NCBI GenBank assembly: GCA_007693635.1
Contig: REDE01000134.1
Location: 1-34,642 of the forward strand
Reading direction: 5' to 3'
Source: Flavobacteriales bacterium
GTDB taxonomy: Bacteria; Bacteroidota; Bacteroidia; Flavobacteriales; Schleiferiaceae
Length of the DNA: 34,642 nucleotides
A model generated the notes under the pieces. That model worked only from the letters and a program-made list of their open reading frames with translations. It searched no databases and was not told the origin of the DNA. The position numbers and the translations under genes are program-made. Each line of letters opens with the position of its first letter. The first letter of the stretch is position 1. Shown here piece by piece: positions 7,133 through 21,835 of this stretch.

Positions 7133-7178
7133 CAAAGCCCGAGTTTGCACTAATCCTGCTTATTCGGGCTTTGTTTTT
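7133..7178 (+). terminator. Rho-independent terminator after the OmpA gene, overlapping the 3' end of the convergent gene
   Basis: CAAAGCCCGA (7133-7142) / TCGGGCTTTG (7164-7173), 10-bp perfect stem, followed by TTTTT. Confidence 0.75.
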
Positions 7179-7596
7179 CTAGAGTAATTTGATAATAAAA
7201 AGCGGGAATCAAGAGCATCATTAGTACAGGATTGACAACCAATCGGTGTAAATGCTGGAGAAAAAATCTCGTTTGCTCAAAAGCGAAAATGGTCAAAGAA
7301 AAATAAATAGGCAATAATATTAGCAGCTCAATTAAAAATAAACGAAACCCAAATTGCATAAAATCATCCCGGCGGAAAAGGCCGTAAATGATCAACAAAC
7401 TGCAACCGTCGTTAATTAAAAACCGGATTAATTTGGAAAAAACAAACTTCAGGTTATCAAAATCCGGAAGTTTTGTCGTACCGGCACCCGTATCATAAAA
7501 TCCGGAATAAAATAATTCGCGCTGTAAAATATATACCGAGGCCAAGCCTAAAACACCAATACCGATTCCTAGCACCGATTTCCAACGAGCCTTCAT
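7150..7596 (-). CDS. Exosortase F system-associated membrane protein
   Basis: 148 aa, ~4 TM; overlaps upstream xrtF by 4 nt; matches the known XrtF-partner arrangement (TIGR04127 type) by position and features. Confidence 0.8.
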   Translation of the reverse strand: MKARWKSVLGIGIGVLGLASVYILQRELFYSGFYDTGAGTTKLPDFDNLKFVFSKLIRFLINDGCSLLIIYGLFRRDDFMQFGFRLFLIELLILLPIYFSLTIFAFEQTRFFLQHLHRLVVNPVLMMLLIPAFYYQITLEKQSPNKQD

Positions 7597-8141
7597 TGCT
7601 CTGATGGGTTTAGAATTTCACTATCTGGCGCCTTTTGTAATCGAACCCAGCCCACCCAAAAAAGCAATACAAAAAGATAGATCACTCCCGTAAACAAAAA
7701 CTTGTGGTAGAAGTGAAACAAATTGGACTGGTAATAATTGATAATAATCAAAAGCGCCAAACGAATTAAATTAAAAAGGTGTATCGACAACAATCCCAGA
7801 GGAATGAACCACAAGGCTGCTTTGTTATTTCGACCACGAAAAGCCAATACAAAAGCTATAAATAGAATCATTACCGCCACCCCGTTACAACCTTCAAATA
7901 CACTTACACTTGGCAAATCTTTATAGGTAACCAAAACAAAAGGCATATCTACATCCAACTCCAACGAAATAGGCTGCCCTATTATCGACATGAAAACCCT
8001 TAAGTTTTCAGACACAAATATTGTGAGTGGATCGGCCAATGGATCATAGTGAGAAATGTAAAGGGAATAAAAAATCGATCCCAAACCATACAAAACCCCA
8101 AAGCGAACGAGAAAGAGAATGGTGGGTTTGAAAGACTCCAT
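7593..8141 (-). CDS. xrtF: Exosortase family protein XrtF
   Basis: 182 aa polytopic; putative catalytic Cys in FEGCNGVAVMILF, Arg in FNLIRLALLI, His in FHFYHKFLF as in the exosortase/archaeosortase superfamily. Confidence 0.88.
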   Translation of the reverse strand: MESFKPTILFLVRFGVLYGLGSIFYSLYISHYDPLADPLTIFVSENLRVFMSIIGQPISLELDVDMPFVLVTYKDLPSVSVFEGCNGVAVMILFIAFVLAFRGRNNKAALWFIPLGLLSIHLFNLIRLALLIIINYYQSNLFHFYHKFLFTGVIYLFVLLFWVGWVRLQKAPDSEILNPSEQ

Positions 8142-20451: not shown

Positions 20452-20886
20452 TCAATTATTTTTCTTATCAATTACGTAGCGTACCCCCACAAAGCCCATA
20501 ATGAATATATCATCAAAACGAGTTTCGTATAGCGGACTTAACTCGATATTTAGGGATAAATTTTTTAGATTCACTAGAGGCTTTATTCCAATTCCAATGG
20601 GAAAAACGAATCCATTGATATTATTAACTACAATTCCACCACCAGCATAAGTATAGTAATTTTCTCGGCGGAGGAAATTATAATTCAAGACGACTTCAGG
20701 TGTGAGGTTATTGATGCTTGTCCCGGAAAAAAGCCTGAAATCTGCCCATAATTTTTCATTAAACTCGTAACCTATTGCATATTTTGAATTTGATTCATTA
20801 ATGTAAAACGAGGTGGTTAATTGGGCGTAAGCAGAAGAAGAAACCATCACTAAAAACAAGACAATAAACGGAATTAATTTTTTCAT
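20452..20886 (-). CDS. Hypothetical secreted/outer-membrane beta-barrel-like protein
   Basis: Signal peptide MKKLIPFIVLFLVMVSSSAYAQ; beta-pattern; start 20886 preferred. Confidence 0.6.
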   Translation of the reverse strand: MKKLIPFIVLFLVMVSSSAYAQLTTSFYINESNSKYAIGYEFNEKLWADFRLFSGTSINNLTPEVVLNYNFLRRENYYTYAGGGIVVNNINGFVFPIGIGIKPLVNLKNLSLNIELSPLYETRFDDIFIMGFVGVRYVIDKKNN

Positions 20887-21081
20887 GATCAAAATATTGA
20901 ATTCAATTTGCATTTGCTATAGACAATAAAGTTTATTTCACTCCTCGAATTAAAGTATCGCTTTTAGGCTTATGACGAAGTATTCAAATTAAAATGCAGA
21001 TACTCCCTGAAGCGCCTCATTTTTATTTAAATCCATCGCCTATCGATGCTAACCTATATTCAATTTGAAATGAAAACAAAC

Positions 21082-21114
21082 AAAAATCAACCGACTCGAA
21101 GCCGGTTCGTTTTT
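21082..21114. terminator. Bidirectional terminator-like palindrome
   Basis: AAAAA-TC-AACCG-ACTCGAAGC-CGGTT-CG-TTTTT; AACCG 21089-21093 / CGGTT 21103-21107 flanked by A-run and T-run. Confidence 0.55.
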
Positions 21115-21161
21115 CGTCTCGAAAAGTACGACACAAATGGTATATCGACACGATGCGTTTT

Positions 21162-21362
21162 GCGCCAGGGACGGAAGCGGTAGCCCGCAGAAGTAAGTGC
21201 CCCATACAGCGGCGTGGGCGGCGGAGGCTGCGACGGTAGGAGCAGACCCCGTACGCCCCGACCGCTGTGGGCACGGCTTCGAGGACTACAAGCGGACGGC
21301 CCGGCGACGGCCCGATGCCGAGAAGCGAATCACCCCGAAAAGTTGGCCGGGCCGGCGGGCGC
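21162..21362. ncRNA. Candidate structured RNA / GC-rich palindromic intergenic element; coding strand undetermined
   Basis: About 71% GC by hand count over 21161-21360; closing stem GCGCC 21162-21166/GGCGC 21358-21362; 13-bp stem GTGCCC(CAT)ACAGCGG 21197-21212 / CCGCTGTGGGCAC 21262-21274; 8-bp stem GGCCCGGC 21298-21305 / GCCGGGCC 21346-21353; no credible protein. Confidence 0.55.
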
Positions 21363-21402
21363 CATAAAAAATATCATACACATAAATGGAACGTATTTGG
21401 CC

Positions 21403-21780
21403 TTAGACACAAACGGCAACACAGGAGATCTCGACGCGGGCACCAGCAGGTAAAGCTTTCACCGCTACGGTTTCTCTTGCGGGAAAATTACCGGTAAAAT
21501 ACCGACTGTACACTTCATTCACTTCGTGAAAATAGCCCATATCGGTTAGGAAAATGCTACACTTAGCTACCTGATCAAGTCCGGAACCCCCAGCCTTTAA
21601 CACCGCTTGAAGGTTTTGCAATACCTGCTCAGTTTCTTCAGCAATACTAGCCTGCTGCATTTCTCCAGAAACGGGATTGATGGCGACTTGTCCACTACAG
21701 TAAAGTGTGGAGTCGACTTTTACGGCTTGACTATAGGGACCAATGGGCGCCGGTGCTTTGTCTGTTCGTATACTTTGCAT
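21403..21780 (-). CDS. ridA: RidA family protein (reactive intermediate/imine deaminase)
   Basis: APAPIGPYSQAVKVDSTLYCSGQVAINP...NLQAVLKAGGSGLDQVAKCSIFLTDM; start MQSIRTD at 21780. Confidence 0.92.
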   Translation of the reverse strand: MQSIRTDKAPAPIGPYSQAVKVDSTLYCSGQVAINPVSGEMQQASIAEETEQVLQNLQAVLKAGGSGLDQVAKCSIFLTDMGYFHEVNEVYSRYFTGNFPARETVAVKALPAGARVEISCVAVCV

Positions 21781-21795
21781 AAAAAAAATTTGCTT

Positions 21796-21803
21796 CAAAG
21801 GTA
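21796..21803 (-). promoter_or_regulatory. -7 element (TACCTTTG on minus) for ridA
   Basis: CAAAGGTA on + strand, 15 nt upstream of the ridA ATG. Confidence 0.4.
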
Positions 21804-21835
21804 CGCAAATACCCAATCTCACGGAAGTCGTTAAC

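Follow-up and report, generated by a model that had tools for sequence, protein, structure and literature searches.

A GC-rich intergenic element of a Flavobacteriales genome as a putative member of an enlarged, probably mobile Flavo-1 repeat superfamily in Bacteroidota

A contig of a Flavobacteriales bacterium (family Schleiferiaceae; REDE01000134.1, assembly GCA_007693635.1) holds a GC-rich segment at positions 21162-21362 of the 34,642 nucleotides analyzed here (the window), and the question raised by this locus is whether such a segment is an RNA gene, a regulatory part of a neighboring transcript, a mobile repeat or an accident of composition or assembly. The reading that we favor, with a probability of roughly 0.7, is that it belongs to a family of structured, non-coding interspersed repeats found across the phylum, whose copies are non-autonomous and spread in trans. 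The original prediction, made from the sequence alone, had proposed a multistem RNA or a family of intergenic elements resembling repetitive extragenic palindromic (REP) sequences, and homologues, dispersal and covariation have all been found. The jump in GC content to about 71% with sharp edges that it described is real: the segment has 71.6% GC, compared with 36.5% and 43% in the adjacent 200 bp and 42.5% in the window, of which it is the GC maximum (z = 5.6). On the + strand it folds at -114.8 kcal/mol (z = -4.9), a value matched by 0 of 200 dinucleotide shuffles, and the fold of the - strand is weaker (z = -2.7). The sole open reading frame (ORF) that overlaps the element (21023-21274, - strand) has no Pfam match, and the segment coincides with no recognizable gene.

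A composition so sharply unlike its surroundings could point to a chance GC island or an assembly chimera, but the presence of 39 or more copies in this genome and of a covarying family across the phylum already refutes this explanation, to which we give next to no weight. BLASTN, one of the checks proposed with the prediction, returned homologous copies rather than none: 5 in the own genome and many in related genomes, at no more than 86% identity over 209 nt. Covariance models extend these numbers, although the copy counts per genome are partly lower bounds. Model R1, built from 26 copies, finds at least 33 copies in the own genome, and model R2, built solely from other genera and with no window sequence, finds at least 39, as well as 55 in genome G007 and about 75 in G218. 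In genome G003 there are at least 20 copies by BLAST and at least 40 overall by model search. R1 has matches in 16 of 80 genomes of the bacterial family and in 19 of 297 of the phylum; R2 has matches in 64 of 396 sampled genomes of the phylum, belonging to 32 of 172 genera, and its sole match on the 34.6 kb window is the element itself (E = 3e-4). When the exact two-arm pattern was searched in 85,000 species, nearly all of the matches listed were Bacteroidota, among them Flavobacterium, Algibacter, Pedobacter, Mucilaginibacter, Chitinophagaceae, Bacteroides and others. Searches of phage collections gave no match, and in the 2.9 million contigs of IMG/VR the general pattern occurs in 12 and the window-subgroup pattern in none. 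A metagenome-assembled genome labeled Spirochaetales (Gx481_bin132) carries many copies (L170, L173, L183, L188, L192, L197, L212, L218, L220 and L232); in an otherwise Bacteroidota family, this is either a mislabeled bin or a transfer.

What these copies share is a fold. The family plan consists of a closing helix (P1), an A, a helix P2 capped by a variable hairpin, a second variable hairpin (P3) and the closing strand P1'. The whole window copy occupies 21162-21363 on the + strand, on which all of its parts lie, and includes one C of the CC that usually follows P1'; it scores 143.8 bits with R1 and 25.4 bits with R2, and its ends are as in other copies, which start with GCGCC-A-GGGA and finish with GGCGC; CC and A-rich sequence usually come next. 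P1 corresponds to the GCGCC/GGCGC closure (21162-21166/21358-21362) of the original prediction, and in relatives it takes the forms GCGTG/CACGC, GCGTT/AACGC, GCGGC/GCCGC, CTGCC/GGCAG and others. The conserved core is P2, with the 5' arm GGGACGGAAGCGGTAGCCC at 21168-21186 and the 3' arm GGACTACAAGCGGACGGCCC at 21283-21302; across the family the arms read GGGAYNGNARYGRAAAGCCC and GGACUUGNARYGRAWAGCCC, Watson-Crick pairs are interleaved with fixed, non-canonical internal loops, and the helix is quasi-symmetric because both arms carry nearly identical sequence. In the window subgroup P2 is capped by a long GC-rich hairpin (21187-21282), which is replaced elsewhere by short or unrelated hairpins. 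The 13-bp stem with a CAT bulge (21197-21212/21262-21274) and the stems inside it are present as predicted. The two sides of the separate 8-bp stem at 21298-21305/21346-21353 do match perfectly; in relatives, however, the register differs: 21298-21302 forms part of the main helix, on its 3' arm, and pairs with GGG at 21168-21170, and P3 spans 21305-21357. P3 varies in sequence yet stays paired through compensatory changes, and some copies that lack it (L005, L023, L030 and L008) keep the ends.

The pairing is backed by extensive compensatory changes among the homologues, which was a further check set out with the prediction. In alignment A3, 88% of cells are paired, with two-sided changes at 32 of 49 pairs; in A4, for which P1 was located by its own complementarity, the share is 99.0%, and in A5, fitted to the model and comprising 105 sequences, it is 99.3%, with two-sided changes at 15 of 17 pairs. 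An anchor-only test of 150 distinct elements, which involves no structure fitting, places the strongest correlation on the predicted antidiagonal of P2 (i+j = 29), which holds 4 of the 8 top pairs, one of them occurring as A-T (61), T-A (56) and G-C (26). The complement of P1 is found downstream, as P1', in 140 of the 150 elements, compared with 11% in a control with P1 sequences swapped between elements. Pair 16/13 is T-G in 12 cases and C-A in one; therefore the + strand of the window is the folded strand, as RNA or as single-stranded DNA.

This fold leads to a known motif. The window copy itself has no match to Flavo-1 (RF01705) in Rfam, even at E ≤ 10, and no other family of Rfam 15 matches it credibly at the thresholds tried; RNase P, HEARO, IMES and other Rfam classes were considered and gave no match. 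Flavo-1 (Weinberg et al. 2010, PMC2864571), likewise from Bacteroidota, has the same helix pattern and internal loops, with the consensus GGGAYNGNARYGRAAAGCC ... RYUUGNARYGRAWAGCCC, and its core helix of 3+2+2+3/4 pairs with fixed internal loops recurs in the family described here. By the Rfam gathering cut-off of 42 bits the window copy falls outside Flavo-1 and so do most relatives, at 24-40 bits, but one relative (L218, 58-159) reaches 58.7 bits. Others match in register (L104 at 36.4, L117 at 40.3 and L121 at 37.4 bits), as does L008, from the same genome as the window copy, at 31.2 bits; L008 and L030, a member of the R1 alignment, match at 29-31 bits. R2 matches both the window copy and the above-cut-off copy L218:58-159, so that the family is tied by homology to accepted Flavo-1 members through R2 and through L030. 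Judged from these sequence matches, the R2 link and the in-register matches of the relatives indicate that the window element represents a divergent subgroup, GC-rich and with a long hairpin, within an enlarged Flavo-1 superfamily. Given that the link runs through relatives, this would be an enlargement of a known family and not a new one, and the Rfam check proposed originally thus has a divided outcome, with no family for the window copy and a known family for its relatives. The Rfam model covers 76 positions, lacks P1 and P3 and has a short AU-rich cap, whereas the family has both additional helices and, in the window subgroup, the GC-rich hairpin that forms the cap measures about 96 nt.

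The copies are scattered over intergenic regions and show no preferred orientation. Since they often lie near gene ends (medians 50-190 bp), a cis-acting mRNA element, be it a terminator, a stabilizer or a 5' leader, has to be considered. However, the four orientation classes of the 76 elements with both neighbors called are about equal (22, 21, 18 and 15) and no gene family recurs among the flanking proteins; therefore there is no cis-regulatory pattern. The sequence after P1' is A-rich and not U-rich, and on the orientation together with the missing U run we reject a terminator or leader function, which leaves the cis-acting reading very improbable; Flavo-1 is also listed as not cis-regulatory (PMC2864571). 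With local GC skew as a proxy for the leading and lagging strands, the mean is +0.020 ± 0.008 (sign test p = 0.35). In the complete genome G262, 6 of 6 copies among those listed are on the + strand in the first half of the record and on the - strand in the second, possibly a replication-strand bias.

The copies have also multiplied within genomes. The own genome contains 20 copies of a sister subgroup that constitute a recent burst: identity among them is mostly 86-99%, their ends are sharp and their flanks are unrelated. For 50 of 69 copies the nearest neighbor in sequence is in the same genome, where 22 would be expected. The core of the window copy is 92% identical to a copy at another location in G003, while the DNA of the ridA region matches G003 at 65%; the site itself is empty in G003, in which ridA is kept beside a GATase gene with no element there. 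At the purT and metH2 sites, presence and absence differ among Flavobacterium congeners, although divergence of the flanks obscures the exact breakpoints. Conjugative plasmids of Bacteroides carry a copy that adjoins a recombinase gene.

Some further features of the insertion sites were noted. Directly upstream of GCGCC in the recent subgroup of the own genome (5' flanks of L273-L292) is a semi-conserved CCCKATNNGCCC, which either belongs to the element or reflects a target preference. Some copies form close pairs, inverted or direct, about 200-300 bp apart or touching (L105, L008 and L186), that recall REP doublets. Many Flavo-1-like copies in G003 have another repeat, GAGTCCACTCYAAAAAGGATGATTT...AGATTTTGGCAGAAAGGGACTTTTTGGAGCAGACTC, in their vicinity (L014, L019, L022, L028, L031 and L033).

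Spread in trans as a non-autonomous repeat has to be weighed against several results that speak against it. No target-site duplication is seen in the flanks of 20 copies, and a search for an ORF between the arms, that is, for an autonomous copy, found none. The element lies beside a Y1/HUH transposase gene (PF01797) in 3 of 36 loci, a weak link, and the transposases at these three loci are of different types. Moreover, orthologous copies with an intact fold persist at the metH2 site in 10 Flavobacterium species, which could mean selection on individual copies. The metH2 upstream region of ten Flavobacterium species (L296-L307) holds at least 4 different P2-cap hairpins, several of them shared with other sites, a diversity that may stem either from gene conversion or from repeated insertion at one site.

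The persistence at metH2 bears on the main rival, selection for a cellular function of the RNA, according to which the family would be functional small RNAs (sRNAs), each copy being an RNA gene or a protein-binding RNA site, for example a decoy for an RNA-binding protein. The strong covariation, the tolerance of G-U on one strand and the conserved internal-loop nucleotides fit such a function, and Rfam types Flavo-1 as 'Gene; sRNA'. But the orientation relative to genes is random, no neighbor is common to the copies, recent bursts have produced near-identical copies, and Flavo-1 matches in F. psychrophilum are found sense or antisense to transcribed regions alike and many of them outside, data that agree with a passive or mobile repeat (PMC9723704). 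We consider an sRNA family unlikely.

The second mobile alternative is a true REP system, in which the element would be a large 'atypical' Bacteroidota REP that a TnpA_REP (HUH) transposase, also known as a REP-associated tyrosine transposase (RAYT), processes in the form of single-stranded DNA. REP, BIME and REPIN sequences with their RAYTs are likewise dispersed, extragenic, palindromic, multi-copy and randomly oriented, and 'atypical' structures have been reported on the flanks of TnpA subclass 2.6 of Bacteroidota (PMC6006769); apart from these structures and Flavo-1, literature searches found no described Bacteroidota repeat of such a type. The three PF01797 loci agree in having the element upstream, on the same side and on the same strand. 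In contrast to REPs, however, the family is longer (about 76-200 nt), has three helices and a non-canonical core, and begins with a variable P1 instead of a 20-40 nt hairpin with GT[AG]G at its 5' foot. The disparate types of the three transposases argue against a dedicated partner, the loci most similar to subclass 2.6 by motif (L142 and L149) lack the element, and several element-rich genomes of the window's genus, all draft assemblies, lack an intact PF01797 gene. A true REP/RAYT system is thus rather improbable too. At the three loci concerned (L129, L137 and L154) the element is divergent from the gene, at a distance of 150-250 bp.

For a miniature inverted-repeat transposable element, the terminal repeat is just the 5-bp covarying P1, there is no ORF-bearing relative, and the 20 flanks show no duplication. 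To our knowledge, the pneumococcal BOX and enterobacterial RU-1/RU-2 repeats are restricted to single genera or families, whereas the Flavo-1-like family spans a phylum. Like that family, BOX (PMC3049150) and RU-1/RU-2 (PMC2759123) are intergenic, short, multi-copy, mobile-like and ORF-less.

If the copies are indeed non-autonomous repeats spread in trans, a host- or element-encoded enzyme would mobilize them by reading the single-stranded fold, chiefly P2, the conserved core that carries the non-canonical loops, and possibly also the closing helix together with the CC after it, and the variable hairpins would be tolerated as spacer. The recognized form may be either single-stranded DNA or RNA; HUH transposases are candidate enzymes and an RNA-based route is equally open. 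A bolder proposal, which we advance tentatively and at somewhat less than even odds, is that the sRNA label of Flavo-1 is wrong and that Flavo-1 represents the small, AU-rich extreme of a class of structured, non-autonomous mobile elements found throughout the phylum, with the quasi-symmetric, non-canonical helix core as the predicted substrate of a Bacteroidota transposition or retrotransposition enzyme.

What is new lies mainly in scope, given that an orphan Rfam motif becomes a large, mobile-looking, phylum-wide repeat family, with two helices more than Rfam's Flavo-1, many Bacteroidota genera and evidence of spread. This raises the testable question of which enzyme copies a folded, gene-less element across a phylum. 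In practice, the copies break draft assemblies and may pass for riboswitches or sRNAs.

The element lies 39 bp beyond the stop of the neighboring ridA-type gene (Ribonuc_L-PSP, 21403-21822, - strand; PF01042, E = 2e-38), on the opposite strand to it. The original prediction also pointed to GGGAYRGAAGCGG...GCCC elements between genes in Bacteroidota, which the homologues and their dispersal support. The gene on the other side (20452-20913, - strand) has no Pfam match. Elsewhere in the window, neighboring genes at 7150-8141 (- strand) resemble, as judged by sequence, an XrtF-type exosortase with its small partner.
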